From: Nisaea sediminum
GTDB lineage: Bacteria; Pseudomonadota; Alphaproteobacteria; Thalassobaculales; Thalassobaculaceae
Assembly: GCF_014904705.1 (NCBI RefSeq)
Contig: NZ_JACZCQ010000003.1
Location: 620,001-684,000 of the forward strand
Length of the DNA: 64,000 nt
Reading direction: 5' to 3'
The translations under genes and the position numbers were made by a program. Below, one piece after another: positions 1,996 through 15,862 of this stretch. The notes under the pieces were generated by a model. The model saw only the letters and a list, made by a program, of their open reading frames with translations, searched no databases and was not told the origin of the DNA. Numbering within the stretch: position 1 is the first letter of the stretch; every line of letters starts with the position of its first letter.

Positions 1996-3399
1996 ATGGC
2001 AAAATCCCAGTCCCGCTATGTCTGTCAGGAATGCGGCGGCGTGCAGCCCAAATGGGCCGGCAAATGCGATGCCTGCGGCGCCTGGAACACGCTGGTCGAG
2101 GAGGTGGTCGAGAAGAGCGCGCCGAAAGGCCTCAGCGGTGCCAAGGGCCGCCGGATCGAGTTCGTCGATCTCGCCGGCAGTTCCGAGAAACGCCCGCGCC
2201 GGGTGACGAAGATTGCCGAATTCGACCGGGTCGCCGGCGGCGGCCTCGTGCCCGGCTCGGTGATCCTGATCGGCGGCGATCCTGGTATCGGCAAATCCAC
2301 GCTGCTGCTGCAGGTTACGGCCAAGCTTTCGGAACATTGCCTCTGCGCCTATGTCTCGGGCGAAGAAGCGCTCGATCAGGTCCGGATGCGGGCCCAGCGG
2401 CTCGGCGTCGCCAAGGCGCCTGTCCAGCTCGCCGCGGCGACCAGCGTGCGCGATATCGTTACCACGCTCGAAAGCGAGGACCCACCGGACGTGCTGGTGA
2501 TCGACTCGATCCAGACCATGTATGTCGACGCCATCGACAGCGCGCCGGGCACCGTCTCCCAGGTCCGCGCCTCGGCCCAGGAGCTGATCCGTGTCGCCAA
2601 GCGCCGCGGCATCGTGCTGATGCTGGTCGGACACGTGACCAAGGAAGGCACCATCGCGGGCCCCCGCGTGCTGGAGCACATGGTCGACACGGTGCTCTAT
2701 TTCGAGGGCGAGCGGGGGCACCAGTTCCGCATCCTGCGCGGCGTGAAGAACCGCTTCGGGCCGACCGACGAGATCGGCGTCTTCGAGATGACCGAGGGCG
2801 GTCTTGCGGAGGTCACCAATCCCTCCGCCCTCTTCCTCGGCGACCGGCAGGAAAGCGTCTCCGGCGCCTGCGTCTTCGCCGGCATGGAAGGCACCCGCCC
2901 GCTTCTGGTCGAGATCCAGGCGCTTGTCGCGCCCTCGCCCTACGGCACGCCCCGGCGGGCGGTGATCGGATGGGATTCGGGCCGCCTCGCCATGGTGACG
3001 GCGGTGCTGGAAGCACGCTGCGGCGTGGTTCTCGCGGGCAGCGACGTCTTCCTCAATGTCGCGGGCGGCCTGAAGGTCGGTGAACCGGCGGCGGACCTGG
3101 CCGTCGCGGCAGCCCTGCTCTCCTCGCTGACCGGCAAGCCGGTTCCGTCCGATGCCGTGGTCTTCGGCGAGATCGGCCTCTCGGCCGAGATCCGTGCCGT
3201 CGCCCATGCCGAGGCGCGGCTGAAGGAAGCGGCCAAGCTCGGCTTCGGCCGCGCGATCCTGCCGGAGCTGCGGCGCAAGAAGGGCGAGAAGGCGTCGCGC
3301 AATGACGGCCTCTCTCTCGCCACGATCCGGCAGTTACATGATCTGGTGGCCATGTTTCAGGACGAGACGTCGGTCGGACGCAAAGCGGGAGAGGCCTGA
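1996..3399 (+). CDS. radA: DNA repair protein RadA
   Basis: A 467-residue RadA/Sms, the RecA-like ATPase that helps branch migration in recombinational repair. The N-terminal zinc finger has Cys10, Cys13, Cys24 and Cys27. Walker A (GGDPGIGKST) begins at about residue 93. The RadA-specific KNRFG motif lies near residue 250. The last ~170 residues form the Lon-protease-like domain. The TGA stop is three bases before the TTG start of the CvpA gene, suggesting co-transcription with cvpA and purF. Confidence 0.96.
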   Translation: MAKSQSRYVCQECGGVQPKWAGKCDACGAWNTLVEEVVEKSAPKGLSGAKGRRIEFVDLAGSSEKRPRRVTKIAEFDRVAGGGLVPGSVILIGGDPGIGKSTLLLQVTAKLSEHCLCAYVSGEEALDQVRMRAQRLGVAKAPVQLAAATSVRDIVTTLESEDPPDVLVIDSIQTMYVDAIDSAPGTVSQVRASAQELIRVAKRRGIVLMLVGHVTKEGTIAGPRVLEHMVDTVLYFEGERGHQFRILRGVKNRFGPTDEIGVFEMTEGGLAEVTNPSALFLGDRQESVSGACVFAGMEGTRPLLVEIQALVAPSPYGTPRRAVIGWDSGRLAMVTAVLEARCGVVLAGSDVFLNVAGGLKVGEPAADLAVAAALLSSLTGKPVPSDAVVFGEIGLSAEIRAVAHAEARLKEAAKLGFGRAILPELRRKKGEKASRNDGLSLATIRQLHDLVAMFQDETSVGRKAGEA

Positions 3400-3402
3400 G
3401 CT

Positions 3403-4071
3403 TTGGAAAACCTGCCCGTCAACGTGACGGATCTCGCGATCATCGCCGCCGTGCTGATCTCCGGCATTCTCGCCTTCGCCCGCGGCTTCTTCCGCGAGGT
3501 GCTGTCGATCGGCTCATGGGTCGCTGCCTTCTTCGCCGCGCTCTATCTCTACCCCGTCGTAACCCCGTATATCCGCCAGTTGCTGGGCTGGGGCGACATG
3601 GCCGACCTTGCCGCCGGGGTCGCCGTTTTCGTCGTCTCCGTGATTGTAATGTCGCTGTTCACCCACTATGTTGCAGCCGCATTACAGGGCAGCAGCCTGA
3701 GTGCGATCGACCGTTCTCTCGGGTTCCTTTTCGGGATCGCCCGGGGCGCGGTTCTGGTCTGCCTGCTCTATCTCGGACTGAATTGGCTGATCGAGGATGA
3801 TGGCTATCCGAAATGGGTAACCGAAGCCCGCACATTGCCCCTTGTTCAGCAGGGGGCGGAAACGCTTGTCAGTCTGGTCCCGCCGCATCTGCGCCCGCGG
3901 ATTCGCGACGCCGCCGGATCGGCGGAAACGAAAGCCCGCGAAGAAACCCAGAAACTGCTCTACGAACGCCTGATGAGCCCTCCGGCAAAATCCGATGCGC
4001 CGCAAGGCGGCGACGGGTATACTGCCGAGCAACGTCGGGATCTGGAGCGGGTCATCGAGAACACGCAGTAG
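3403..4071 (+). CDS. cvpA: CvpA family membrane protein
   Basis: A 222-residue protein of the CvpA (colicin V production) family. It has about four hydrophobic segments within the first ~135 residues, including the conserved RGFFREVLSIGSWVAAFF stretch, and a charged C-terminal tail. The start is a TTG at 3403, chosen because it follows the radA stop directly and gives the family's N-terminus. The radA-cvpA-purF order is widely conserved in alphaproteobacteria. The molecular role of CvpA is not settled; it has been linked to envelope stress tolerance. Confidence 0.88.
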   Translation: MENLPVNVTDLAIIAAVLISGILAFARGFFREVLSIGSWVAAFFAALYLYPVVTPYIRQLLGWGDMADLAAGVAVFVVSVIVMSLFTHYVAAALQGSSLSAIDRSLGFLFGIARGAVLVCLLYLGLNWLIEDDGYPKWVTEARTLPLVQQGAETLVSLVPPHLRPRIRDAAGSAETKAREETQKLLYERLMSPPAKSDAPQGGDGYTAEQRRDLERVIENTQ

Positions 4072-12104: not shown

Positions 12105-12143
12105 CGGAATACGTTTTGCGTATTCCGAATTACTTCTTATATT
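12105..12143 (+). promoter_or_regulatory. Candidate promoter with palindromic operator, upstream of pspA-like/yqiJ/flotillin operon
   Basis: A perfect inverted repeat CGGAATACG (12105-12113) and CGTATTCCG (12119-12127) is separated by TTTTG. A sigma-70-like promoter overlaps it: TTGCGT at 12116-12121 and TATATT at 12138-12143 with a 16-base spacer. The repeat covers the -35, as expected of a repressor site. It could instead form a stem-loop ending the upstream gene, but there is no T tract after it. The first codon of the operon is about 40 bases downstream of the -10. Confidence 0.5.
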
Positions 12144-12181
12144 CATGGCAGGGAATATAAAGGGTCCGGAGAATTCGCCTG

Positions 12182-13360
12182 ATGGTTCGGGACAACCAAC
12201 AAGCGGTACTGGCAATACTGAGACTGACAGCAAGCGAAAGCGCTTCCAAGGCATTTCGCGAATTGCGCCGCCGCATCGCTACAGGCGTTGCACGGGTCAT
12301 GAACGACCCGGTGATCGAACAGACACGCAGCCAGGTCCGCGTGCTTGGGGAAGTCTATCAAAGCCTGCGCGACTCCGGTGTCCCGTCCCAATATGCCGGC
12401 CCCTGCGTCGCCGTCGCCCTCAAGCGGCTGGCAAGTGGACTCGGCCCACCCGAGGAATCCGGTTTTTCCATTCCCCTCGATGCCAAGGGATTCGCGCTGA
12501 AGAGCGTCGACACGGTCTCCGTAGCGACCGTCGACGGGCGTGTCCTCTGCAGCTTTGTCCATGAGGGATACGAAAACAGTAATGCCGTGACGGTAGGGCG
12601 TGGAGAGCTCACCGAAATCGACGGCATCTGGTTCCTCAGACAGATCACCTCCATCGAAACAAAACATCTGCTTCAGCCAAGGAGTAACGACATGAGCGAG
12701 AACATGATGAGCCGGGTGAGCCGGCTGATTGCCGGCCTCGGATCCGCGGTCATCGACGCCGCGGAACAGAGCGCACCAATCGCAACCTTGCGCGAGAACG
12801 TTCGCCAGCTCGAGAAGGAACGGGAAAACGTTCGCAACGACGTCGGCCGCCTCGAAGCCGAGCGGGTCCGCATCCGTCGCAGGGTCGGACAGCTCGAAGC
12901 CGAGGATATGGCGCTGGACGAGAAGATCCGCGTCGCGATCGAGGAAGGGCGGGATGAGCTGGCGGCACGCGGCCTCGGACGTCAGGAAGATATCGTAGCC
13001 CAGCTCGATCCCTTGAAACTGCGTCAGGCCGAACTCGAAGCCGAGATTGAGGAAGGCAAGCGGGCCCTGAACGCCCTTGGTGCCACGATCCGCGATCTTG
13101 AGTCGGAAATCTCCGCTTTCGAGGCGAGCGAGCGCAGCGCCGGCGGTACAGACCAGGGAATGAGAACAAATCTCTCGCCGGCGCAGCGGGCCGAGCGGGC
13201 GGCCGACCGGGCGATGTCCGTGTCCGCACGCATCACGGGCGTACCCAAGGATAACGGGGCAAACGACACCGACCTCGCCGAACTTGACGACCTGGTTCGC
13301 AAGAAGCGCATTCAGGACAAGCTCGCTGCCCTCAAGAAAGACATCGCGGCGGGCTCATGA
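12182..13360 (+). CDS. PspA/IM30-like coiled-coil protein fused to an unrecognised N-terminal domain
   Basis: A 392-residue protein. Residues ~171-320 form a long, heptad-like, Glu/Arg-rich coiled coil typical of PspA/IM30 proteins, starting at MSENMMSRVSRLIAGLGS, which looks like a genuine PspA N-terminus. Residues 1-165 are a separate globular domain that I do not recognise. An in-frame ATG at 12692 has a perfect ribosome-binding site, so a 222-residue PspA-only product is likely as well. The stop overlaps the next gene's ATG (ATGA). The neighbours (YqiJ-like and flotillin) match the membrane-fluidity/stress operons in which PspA-like proteins occur. Confidence 0.8.
   Translation: MVRDNQQAVLAILRLTASESASKAFRELRRRIATGVARVMNDPVIEQTRSQVRVLGEVYQSLRDSGVPSQYAGPCVAVALKRLASGLGPPEESGFSIPLDAKGFALKSVDTVSVATVDGRVLCSFVHEGYENSNAVTVGRGELTEIDGIWFLRQITSIETKHLLQPRSNDMSENMMSRVSRLIAGLGSAVIDAAEQSAPIATLRENVRQLEKERENVRNDVGRLEAERVRIRRRVGQLEAEDMALDEKIRVAIEEGRDELAARGLGRQEDIVAQLDPLKLRQAELEAEIEEGKRALNALGATIRDLESEISAFEASERSAGGTDQGMRTNLSPAQRAERAADRAMSVSARITGVPKDNGANDTDLAELDDLVRKKRIQDKLAALKKDIAAGS
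12679..12694 (+). promoter_or_regulatory. Internal ribosome-binding site and in-frame start
   Basis: AAGGAG at 12679-12684 lies seven bases before an in-frame ATG at 12692, a much better site than the one preceding the long ORF's start at 12182. It would start translation exactly at the PspA-like part. It may be a relic of two formerly separate genes or a working second start. Confidence 0.6.
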
Positions 13361-14073
13361 ACTGGGAGCTGCTGCTCAGTCCCGAAGCGCGTCCCTTCGC
13401 CGTAACTCTTGGCATCGGATTGGGACTCTGCCTGATCGAGATCGTCACATTCTTCGTCGGCTTTTCGCTGTCGGAAATGGTGGAGGGCTTCTTCAGCGGC
13501 TCGCCGGATCTCGATATCGATGCGGATGTCGATGCAGATATCGACGCGGATGCGGACGGCACCGGGGGCGAGGGCATCATCTCCTCGGCCTTCGGCCTGC
13601 TCAATCCGAGCCGTGTGCCTTTCGGGATGTGGCTGATCCTGGCGTTGCTGTCGTATGGCACAGTCGGGTTCGTCGGGCAGTCCGTCTTCGCAGCCGTACT
13701 GGCCCCACTGCCTGCGCTCATCGCCGGTACGGCCGCGCTCTTCGCGGCGCTACCGGTGATCCGCATTCTTAGTCAGGGACTCGGAGCCATCCTGCCCGAC
13801 GATCACTCCGAAGCGATCACGCCTGGAGAGCTTGTCGGCCATGTCGGAACTCTATCCGTCGGGCCCGCCGAAGCCGCAAGCCCTGGACGCGCTGTTGTTC
13901 GCGACAAGTACGGAAACCCTCACAACGTCCGTGTCGTTCCCGCCGAGGACGGAACGGTGCTCCAGATCGCCGAACAGGTTCTGCTCGTCGACCTGCGCAG
14001 CGATGGTGTGTTTCGCGCCAGTCCGGCACCCGAACACCTGATCGACCGCAAGGCGTCCGATGCCGATAGATAA
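13357..14073 (+). CDS. YqiJ-like membrane protein with C-terminal OB fold
   Basis: A 238-residue protein with an N-terminal membrane segment, a strictly alternating acidic stretch (DIDADVDADIDADAD, about residues 54-68), a second hydrophobic block (about 85-140) and a soluble C-terminal OB-like/NfeD-type domain (about 150-225, with GHVGTL and VVRDKYGNPHNVRV). This is the layout of YqiJ, the partner of the flotillin YqiK. Its ATG overlaps the stop of the PspA-like gene. The acidic repeat might bind divalent cations, but that is inference. Confidence 0.78.
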   Translation: MNWELLLSPEARPFAVTLGIGLGLCLIEIVTFFVGFSLSEMVEGFFSGSPDLDIDADVDADIDADADGTGGEGIISSAFGLLNPSRVPFGMWLILALLSYGTVGFVGQSVFAAVLAPLPALIAGTAALFAALPVIRILSQGLGAILPDDHSEAITPGELVGHVGTLSVGPAEAASPGRAVVRDKYGNPHNVRVVPAEDGTVLQIAEQVLLVDLRSDGVFRASPAPEHLIDRKASDADR

Positions 14074-14125
14074 TTGGAATAACGCAGAAAATGACTTCAG
14101 TTGGGGACATTCAGAGGAACTCACA

Positions 14126-15862
14126 ATGGGAAGCATGATCGACTCCCTCATCAGCACTGCAACGCCAATCTTGGCCGGCATCGTCGTCGTCCTCGCCTTT
14201 GGCATCATGTTCACGCAATTTTACCGGCGCGCTTCCCCGGAACGGGCGTTCGTCCGCACCGGACTGAAAGGCGCCAAGGCGTTCATTTCCGGCGGCGGCC
14301 TGGTCCTGCCGATCATTCATGAAATCCGTTACGTCAATCTCCGCACTCTGAAGCTGCTGGTCGACCGGCGCGGCGGCGATGCGATGATCACCAACGACAA
14401 CCGGCGCGCCGACGTGCAGGCCGAGTTCTATGTCCGCGTCAGCCCGACCGACGATGCCGTGCGCACCGCCGCCCGGACGCTGGGCGAGCGCACGCTCGAG
14501 CCGGAACGGCTGAAGGAGCTGATCGAGGGCAAGTTCATCGACGGCCTCCGTTCCGTCGCCGCCACCATGTCCCTGCAGCAGCTGCACGAGAAGCGGACCG
14601 ATTTCGTCAAGGAGGTGCAGAACACCGTCGCGGCCGACCTCGAGCAGAACGGCCTCGAGCTGGAGAGTGTGTCCCTCACCTATCTCGACCAGACCGACAT
14701 CACCTTCCTTGATCCGAACAACACCTTCGACGCCAAGGGCCTGACGCTCCTGACAAAAGAAACCGAGGAGAAGAAGCGCGAACGCAACCAGATCGAGGAA
14801 ATGACGCGCGTCGATATCGCCAGCCGCAAGGCCGATGCCGACAAGCAGGAATTCACCATCAACCAGGACAGGGCCGAGGCCGAGGCCGCGGCTAAGGCGC
14901 AGATCGCGCGCAAGCAGTCCGAGGCCGACGCGACCGAAGCCGAGGCCAAGGCCGAAGCCGAGCGCCGCTCCCAGGAAGCCTCGGTGATGGCGAACCGGAA
15001 GATCAAGGCGGCGGAGATCGCCAGCCAGCAGGAAATCGAGGCGGCGGAAATCGCCAAGAAGCGCGAGATCGATATCGCCGAGCAAGAGGCGCAGATCACG
15101 CTGGCGGAAAAATCCAAGGCCGTGAGCCAGGCGGAAGCCGAAGCACAGATCGCGCGCGCCGAACAGGTGAAGGCCGAGGAAGCGGTGATCACCGAGCGGC
15201 AACGCGCCGAAGCCACCCGCGTCAAGGAGATCGCGGTCATCAAAGCGACCGAGGAAGCCGAGGTCCAGGCCACCGGCGTTCGCGTCTCCGCTCAAGCGGA
15301 GAAAGACGCCTCCGTCGACCTCGCCGATGCGATCCGGATCGAGACCGATGCGAAGGCCGGGCAGATCGAGCGCCTCGGTCAGGCCGAGAAGAGCCGCCTC
15401 TTGTCGGAGGCGGAAGGCCGCGAAGCCCAGATCCGGGCGGAAAACCAGCTTTCCTCGCAGATCATCGAATACCGTCTGCGCGAGGAAACCATCCGTGTCC
15501 TACCGGTCATCATGGCGGAAGCGGTCAAGCCGGCGGAGAAGATCTCCAACATCTCGATCGTCGACATGAACGGTCTTGGTGTCGGCGGCTCGGGCGGCGA
15601 GGCCGTCGCGGCGGGCGGCGGACTGCCCGACCAAGTTCTCGGAGCCGTACTGCGGCATCGCGCCTTTGCCCCCTTCGTCGACCATATGCTGAAGGAATCC
15701 GGGCTCTCGGTCGTCGGACCGGACGGAAGCCCTCTCGGCCTGCAGGAATTCCTCGAGAAGTCGGCTACGGCCGTCGCAGAGAAACCCGGCGACGCTCCGG
15801 TTCCGGCGATGCAGCCTGCGGCTCTCGACACCTCCGGCACCGCCGAAGCCGCACCGGAGTAA
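14126..15862 (+). CDS. Flotillin-family protein (YqiK type)
   Basis: 578 residues from ATG 14126, chosen because GAGGA sits just upstream; an upstream in-frame start would overlap the previous gene. One N-terminal membrane anchor is followed by an SPFH/band-7 domain (about 30-200), a long Ala/Glu/Lys-rich helical region (about 215-460) and a C-terminal flotillin tail with VLPVIMAEAVKPAEKI. Flotillins form membrane microdomain scaffolds. It is the last gene of the PspA-like/YqiJ-like operon and ends at a strong hairpin. Confidence 0.88.
   Translation: MGSMIDSLISTATPILAGIVVVLAFGIMFTQFYRRASPERAFVRTGLKGAKAFISGGGLVLPIIHEIRYVNLRTLKLLVDRRGGDAMITNDNRRADVQAEFYVRVSPTDDAVRTAARTLGERTLEPERLKELIEGKFIDGLRSVAATMSLQQLHEKRTDFVKEVQNTVAADLEQNGLELESVSLTYLDQTDITFLDPNNTFDAKGLTLLTKETEEKKRERNQIEEMTRVDIASRKADADKQEFTINQDRAEAEAAAKAQIARKQSEADATEAEAKAEAERRSQEASVMANRKIKAAEIASQQEIEAAEIAKKREIDIAEQEAQITLAEKSKAVSQAEAEAQIARAEQVKAEEAVITERQRAEATRVKEIAVIKATEEAEVQATGVRVSAQAEKDASVDLADAIRIETDAKAGQIERLGQAEKSRLLSEAEGREAQIRAENQLSSQIIEYRLREETIRVLPVIMAEAVKPAEKISNISIVDMNGLGVGGSGGEAVAAGGGLPDQVLGAVLRHRAFAPFVDHMLKESGLSVVGPDGSPLGLQEFLEKSATAVAEKPGDAPVPAMQPAALDTSGTAEAAPE

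Follow-up and report, generated by a model that had tools for sequence, protein, structure and literature searches.

Evidence for a TnpB/Cas12-type recognition lobe fused to PspA in Nisaea sediminum and other bacteria, with a conserved internal start and a putative operator private to the operon

PspA proteins report membrane stress, and in Escherichia coli PspA holds back the activator PspF. The DNA stretch examined here, 64,000 nucleotides of Nisaea sediminum (contig NZ_JACZCQ010000003.1, positions 620,001 to 684,000; hereafter the window), carries a gene in which PspA is preceded by a long N-terminal domain. What is this domain, and what does it do in front of PspA? An earlier note on this DNA had spoken of an unrecognised domain of ~165 residues joined to PspA. 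The PspA part of that description holds: PspA_IM30 (PF04012) is found at residues 176-339 with E 2.9e-9 and 37.3 bits, above the cut-off of 33.9, residues 171-392 alone score 38.8 bits, and this part is a coiled coil that forms a helical hairpin in the predicted model. The description of the N-terminal domain has to be revised. It is a unit of 170 residues up to Met171, with homology ending at about residue 157-160, and although residues 1-170 alone match no Pfam or NCBIfam family above cut-off, there is strong evidence, from sequence profiles and a structural model, that they are homologous to the WED+REC recognition lobe of a TnpB/Cas12-type nuclease. In our preferred reading, to which we give a probability of roughly 0.55, a captured TnpB lobe and PspA would form one gene with two products, in which the lobe represses its own operon through a palindrome and membrane stress releases it.

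Hidden Markov model (HMM) search, profile-profile alignment and fold comparison together identify the domain. An HMM profile of ten N-terminal domains, searched against 299 genomes of the phylum, matched a full-length TnpB (L135) with E 4.5e-11. This protein, which has OrfB_IS605 and Cas12f1-like_TNB domains as well as RuvC and zinc-ribbon motifs, was the sole match outside the fused family at E < 1e-3. Alignment of 31 domains with six TnpBs by hhalign gave E 2.8e-19 over 145 columns, with domain positions 13-157 colinear with TnpB 8-172 and the match stopping before RuvC-I. The control searches (the reversed profile and ten shuffles) reached E 0.016 at best, and an unrelated alignment of ribbon-helix-helix (RHH)-like proteins gave no match. 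The six TnpBs are a selected set, built from TnpBs related to the N-terminal domain; four others, chosen by PF12323 or by neighbourhood regardless of this domain, gave no sequence match (E 0.23), and the domain therefore appears to belong near one TnpB subgroup. Beyond the fused family, tblastn matched many TnpBs and transposases from haloarchaea, Allomeiothermus, Deinococcus and Bacteroides, individually weak (E 0.02-10, with unrelated proteins also among the weak matches) yet colinear from near the TnpB start.

The structure comparison is independent of the TnpB selection used for the profile-profile alignment. In the AlphaFold model of the domain (pLDDT 80, pTM 0.75) the predicted fold is that of TnpB, a strand, REC helices and a WED barrel. 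Foldseek placed Cas12, TnpB or Fanzor at ranks 1-15, and all 50 of the structural matches listed belong to this superfamily, including ISFba1 TnpB, Cas12k and Fanzor2 structures. The best VIA-align match was Cas12f1 (Z 13.4, 153 residues, rmsd 3.0), and ISDra2 TnpB (8bf8) gave Z 12.1 over 147 residues with rmsd 3.2. Model residues ~5 to ~160 correspond to TnpB 1-177, that is, to the recognition lobe without the nuclease. Searched by sequence against the PDB, the domain matched designed proteins only and its ten-member profile matched nothing; Pfam found HTH_OrfB_IS605 in only one of the ten members (E 0.24). A CesT/Tir chaperone, an idea taken from a survey of the phage shock protein (PSP) system, was rejected as the identity of the domain since the fold search gave Cas12/TnpB in all listed rows. 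The lobe resembles TnpB (IS200/IS605 OrfB) and Cas12f in the order of strands and helices, in colinearity with TnpB from ~8 to ~172 and in Z scores of 10-13 to solved structures. Unlike them, the fusion has no RuvC or zinc ribbon and no evident guide RNA or transposon (transposon ends were not searched for), its C-terminal half is PspA, and its charge is near neutral. The homology ends before RuvC-I, PspA comes next, and neither the RuvC D-E-D triad nor the zinc ribbon of TnpB is present in the fused protein. In a search for omega-RNA or guide RNA between 11800 and 16200 of the window, no Rfam family matched at E ≤ 1. To our knowledge, the known reuses of TnpB (Cas12, Fanzor and TldR) retain the RuvC half; in the fusion, judged by sequence, only the recognition lobe survives and the RuvC half is lost.

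Lobe-like sequences were also encountered elsewhere. Plasmid pTHECO01 of Thermobacillus composti encodes a free-standing 'hypothetical' protein of ~176-197 residues that resembles a TnpB lobe (L119:4938-5528, tblastn E 4e-4), situated between Flp/Tad-type and S-layer genes; it is perhaps a further TnpB lobe that lacks RuvC and has found a use. Lobe-like stretches on Rhodothermus marinus pRMAR01 (L120:4001-4381) and Allomeiothermus silvanus pMESIL01 (L121:4007-4534), one of them unannotated and one ending right at the RuvC-I motif, are probably decayed TnpBs.

The window protein alone, used as a query, gave no match in a first scan of genome contigs. A search of the class with the N-terminal domain gave one clear and several weak matches, the frames being 389-399 residues long. 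On plasmid records of Bosea, Shinella, Agrobacterium and Rhizobium the gene recurs under the annotation 'PspA/IM30 family protein', followed by OB-fold and flotillin genes. From the alignment of ten N-terminal domains 140 relatives were found in genome contigs; the best 80 of these, with 16 further loci, constitute the 96 homologous loci counted below. The genera with the fusion include Shinella, Rhizobium, Agrobacterium, Bosea, Labrys, Bradyrhizobium and Ensifer, among others. Both halves lie in a single frame in all 96 loci, with no in-frame stops, and homologues share no more than 26-33% identity with the window protein. A recent fusion of two genes, which the earlier note had offered as an alternative, is rejected on these grounds, as the halves were found apart in 0/96 loci. 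The operon context that it had named, YqiJ-like and flotillin genes, is borne out by Pfam matches in the window and by the homologous loci with enough flank, where the OB gene is present in 92/92 and flotillin in 87/87. The fused gene is the first gene of a predicted PspA-YqiJ-flotillin operon, and by these comparisons it is the product of an old fusion that has become fixed, across Hyphomicrobiales and relatives, in a stress operon of housekeeping type. Because 80 loci were found through the N-terminal domain, as the best 80 of 140, the set is uninformative on how often PspA occurs without the lobe. Among 385 genomes of the class a PspA match was found in 51; in the 15 with a match at E < 1e-50, the fusion was present in six and absent from nine. 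It was found in none of the four congeners of the window genome searched (G001-G004), so the operon of the window may have been horizontally gained, or lost in the others.

The second question is whether the PspA half is also made on its own. The earlier note had pointed to AAGGAG, seven bases before an in-frame ATG at the PspA N-terminus, and had proposed that fused and free PspA come from one gene. The sequence is as it described, and the site is conserved among homologues that are all one chain: the internal Met is present in 96/96 loci and GGAG lies within 22 nt upstream in 94/96, the two without it being L077 (AGGGAA) and L118 (GAGG). The gap between GGAG and ATG is 6 in 87 of the 94. The codon phase of GGAG is the same in 92/94 and differs, by inspection, in the window and L005, which indicates that the bases are kept and not the residues; the residues around the Shine-Dalgarno (SD) sequence vary (KEAS, REAT, RMEEN, EEKT, GEHT, PRSND). 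In 89 of the 90 proteins first analysed (L010 was not located automatically and is outside the energy count), the mean anti-SD duplex energy at the internal start was -9.3 kcal/mol. The corresponding means were -2.1 for the 409 other in-frame ATGs in these open reading frames (ORFs) and -2.6 for a sample of 4711 codon positions. When a protein offered a choice of Met codons, the most favourable energy decided, which biases the comparison slightly towards the internal start. A value of -6 kcal/mol was reached at 98% of the 89 internal starts and 5.4% of the 409 other ATGs. The internal start and its ribosome-binding site are thus kept amid changing residues, which makes it probable that one gene yields two proteins, and the evidence for predicted dual starts, yielding the long form and free PspA, is strong.

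At the long-form start an SD of that strength (-6 kcal/mol) was found in 1/96 loci, the window alone. In 69 of 84 loci with a recognised element the long-form ATG lies 9-11 nt past CTTTA (some long-form starts were picked automatically, and those of L047, L118 and L134 are probably misplaced). We read CTTTA by eye as a -10 element, which at 9-11 nt would let transcription begin on the ATG or right beside it; the long form thus looks leaderless in most relatives and SD-led in the window. Shigella spa33 reportedly also makes a full-length and a C-terminal product from one gene by means of an internal start. That protein is unrelated, and the two starts of the fused gene appear to use different modes of initiation, leaderless for the long product and a strong ribosome-binding site for the short one.

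If the lobe acts on DNA, where might it bind? With up to two mismatches allowed, the window palindrome GGAATACG-N5-CGTATTCC has one other place in its genome. In dereplicated upstream regions of relatives, CTTGAAAGCAC-N7-GTGCTTTATAT precedes the ATG. The form AAAGCAC-N7-GTGCTTTA occurs without mismatch at a single place in 8/12 genomes and is absent from the remaining four, which include G000; when one mismatch is allowed it has a single place in 10/11 genomes, all at the promoter of the fused operon (reversed-pattern control, 0-1 per strand). AAAGCAC/GTGCTTT is conserved at the base level between CTTGAA and TTTATAT elements, at a fixed distance to the ATG and with a weak T tail; compensated variants such as AAAACAC/GTGTTTT (L134) occur. 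Perfect 7+7 inverted repeats were found upstream in 76/96 loci, against 1-3/96 after shuffling. Having a single place per genome, the palindrome was rejected as the site of a global regulator with a regulon. A palindrome private to one operon suggests a regulator encoded in the same operon, and these data point to a putative operator at the promoter. The -35/-10 assignment in the window was made by eye, on what we take to be the alphaproteobacterial consensus.

The main argument that the lobe is a DNA-reading regulator is comparative. In lobe-less operons of the same PspA group, examined in 11 genomes, an upstream gene for an RHH-like protein stands directly before pspA in ten. The protein has ~170 residues and an N-terminus assigned to RHH by eye, and represents an unnamed family (loci L173-L181 and L188, alignment A8) that had no Pfam match over cut-off, the only weak matches being a single one to DUF6290 (E 0.012) and others that make no sense; it gave no match in the PDB. 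Repeats of TGNATACA are found upstream of the RHH-like genes, and in G157 and G260, the two genomes tested, their two-half site has a single occurrence each, at the RHH-like gene. In a tree of 49 PspA domains those linked to RHH-like genes, together with L182, form one clade (95/98); the fused PspAs need 1-2 changes on this tree, and the window sits on a long branch whose placement is unsure. The lobe thus appears to be swapped for a separate RHH-like gene, whose product is a putative DNA-binding protein, and each of the two has its own, different private site, which argues for the lobe as a regulator. L182 (G007) itself is a PspA-YqiJ-flotillin operon with neither lobe nor RHH-like gene and with a divergent ORF upstream. 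In L188 (G244), at about 2993-3724 (+), pspA is split between two frames, in overlapping pieces of 99 and 181 aa, which would be a frameshift or sequencing error.

We therefore consider how such a protein might work. The lobe of the long form would bind the palindrome that overlies its operon's promoter, and repress that operon. On a stressed membrane its PspA units would oligomerise with free PspA, and the long form would be drawn off the DNA and the operon induced. Free PspA from the internal start would be the effector, and could also titrate the long form. Long and short PspA may plausibly co-assemble; DNA binding, repression and release at the membrane we infer for the long form. In ISDra2 TnpB the duplex of the transposon-associated motif is held in the WED-REC cleft, and residues Y52, S56, K76, F77, Q80, T123 and N124 make contacts to this motif (PMC10097598). 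More tentatively, at somewhat less than even odds, a TnpB lobe without nuclease or guide RNA may serve as a guide-free, palindrome-reading transcription factor domain that makes, with PspA, a one-protein membrane-stress switch whose effector comes from the internal start. Several points weigh against such a role. We know of no WED-REC lobe that binds DNA alone without guide RNA. With a mean net charge of -1.6 and a pI of 6.7 over 90 proteins the lobe is close to neutral, and nucleic-acid contacts may thus be weakened; four bacterial TnpB lobes of the group related to the domain carry +4 to +17 (a range that excludes the Rhodothermus TnpB L120, net +30 and of another subgroup), and two haloarchaeal ones carry -4 and -10. 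In several loci (e.g. L046, L063, L084) the 7+7 test settled on unrelated repeats, no AAAGCAC-type repeat was found in L005, nor by this test in L006 and L007, and an E. coli-type sigma70 scan found no promoter in the window or L039, the palindromes of both being labelled terminator-like by the scan.

The near-neutral charge would fit a lobe, its WED part an OB-type barrel, that has lost nucleic-acid binding and caps PspA for protein interaction or oligomerisation, controlling how filaments grow or how they dock to the YqiJ/flotillin scaffold, while the palindrome is read by an operon-specific regulator encoded elsewhere. The invariable place of the long form before YqiJ and flotillin genes is in line with such a cap, as is the Bacillus subtilis SPFH protein YdjI, which brings PspA to the membrane (PMC8581546). 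We nevertheless consider it rather unlikely, since an operon-private palindrome is most easily explained by a regulator encoded in the operon, and sister operons carry the RHH-like gene in the same slot. It is improbable that the palindrome is instead a terminator or attenuator hairpin for upstream transcripts, with expression controlled otherwise: the scan result favours this, whereas base-level conservation at a fixed distance to the ATG, the single copy per genome and the weak T tail do not.

The lobe might also still use RNA, as a TldR-like or RNA-binding regulator working with a trans-supplied guide or structured RNA. Nuclease-dead, TnpB-derived TldRs are RNA-guided repressors (PMC13418256), and WED touches omega-RNA in TnpB; RuvC, however, which bears much of the omega-RNA contact (both points from PMC10097598), is absent from the fusion, and the Rfam search was negative. 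We regard such RNA use as quite improbable. That only the fusion is made, the internal SD and ATG being a functionless relic, would agree with the open frame through both halves at every locus, but is hard to reconcile with an SD kept in nearly all of them despite differing residues, and in another phase in the window and L005; we give it hardly any weight. Repression by the lobe through the palindrome, with release at the membrane, remains our preferred reading.

Among the closest precedents is TldR, in which a TnpB part is likewise reused for gene control beside a non-transposon gene; TldRs retain an inactivated RuvC together with a guide RNA, whereas in the fusion RuvC is gone and PspA is joined (TldR as presented in PMC13418256). 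With E. coli PspA and Vipp1/IM30 the fused protein shares the PspA_IM30 domain and helical hairpin. It differs from them in its long TnpB-derived extension, in its divergence (37-39 bits) and in having YqiJ-like and flotillin neighbours, not pspBC. PspA-flotillin-YqiJ operons of the PSP survey also contain flotillin and YqiJ/YuaF-like genes, and the survey, in its available portion, lists CesT/Tir partners and PspA fusions to NlpC/P60 and PspAA, with no TnpB part (PMC11237479). A TnpB-PspA fusion was not found in the open-licence literature searched, where the papers that mention both TnpB and PspA were, by their titles, not relevant; such an absence is weak evidence. Should the lobe read DNA without a guide, it would show what the protospacer-adjacent-motif-reading module of Cas12 can do alone and how regulators may originate from it; a new class of regulators derived from the ancestor of CRISPR-Cas12 would be the consequence. 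The operon also offers a compact test of how PspA could sense membrane stress and set its own dose, as well as of a gene in which the long product seems to be initiated without a leader and the short one from a strong ribosome-binding site.

Table 1. Positions of the fused gene, its predicted parts and signals, and the neighbouring genes in the window
Feature	Position	Strand	Remarks
Palindrome GGAATACG-TTTTG-CGTATTCC, putative operator	12106..12126	.	Sole perfect match in the 5.02-Mb genome
Possible promoter, TTGCGT-16-TATATT	12116..12143	+	By eye
Second inverted repeat, TATATTC-N8-GAATATA	12138..12159	.	
GGAG, SD of the long form	12168..12171	+	10-base gap to ATG 12182
Fused ORF, 392 aa	12182-13360	+	ATG start
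N-terminal domain, residues 1-170: TnpB/Cas12 recognition lobe (WED strand, REC helices, WED barrel), without RuvC	12182..12691	+	
AAGGAG, SD of the internal start	12679-12684	+	7-base gap to in-frame ATG 12692
PspA/IM30-like domain	12692..13360	+	Internal ATG 12692 is residue 171; predicted free product of 222 aa
YqiJ-like membrane protein, OB fold	13357..14073	+	Pfam YqiJ_N 2.1e-21, YqiJ_OB 2.1e-13; start overlaps the pspA stop
Flotillin (SPFH/Band 7 + Flot)	14060..15862	+	Pfam Flot 2.9e-26, Band_7 1.1e-8; overlaps the YqiJ-like gene slightly

An ORF of 139 aa in another frame (12145-12564, +) overlaps the start of the fused gene. Its ATG lies one base past the possible -10 element, at the same spot as the leaderless ATG of the relatives, and it is probably noncoding.
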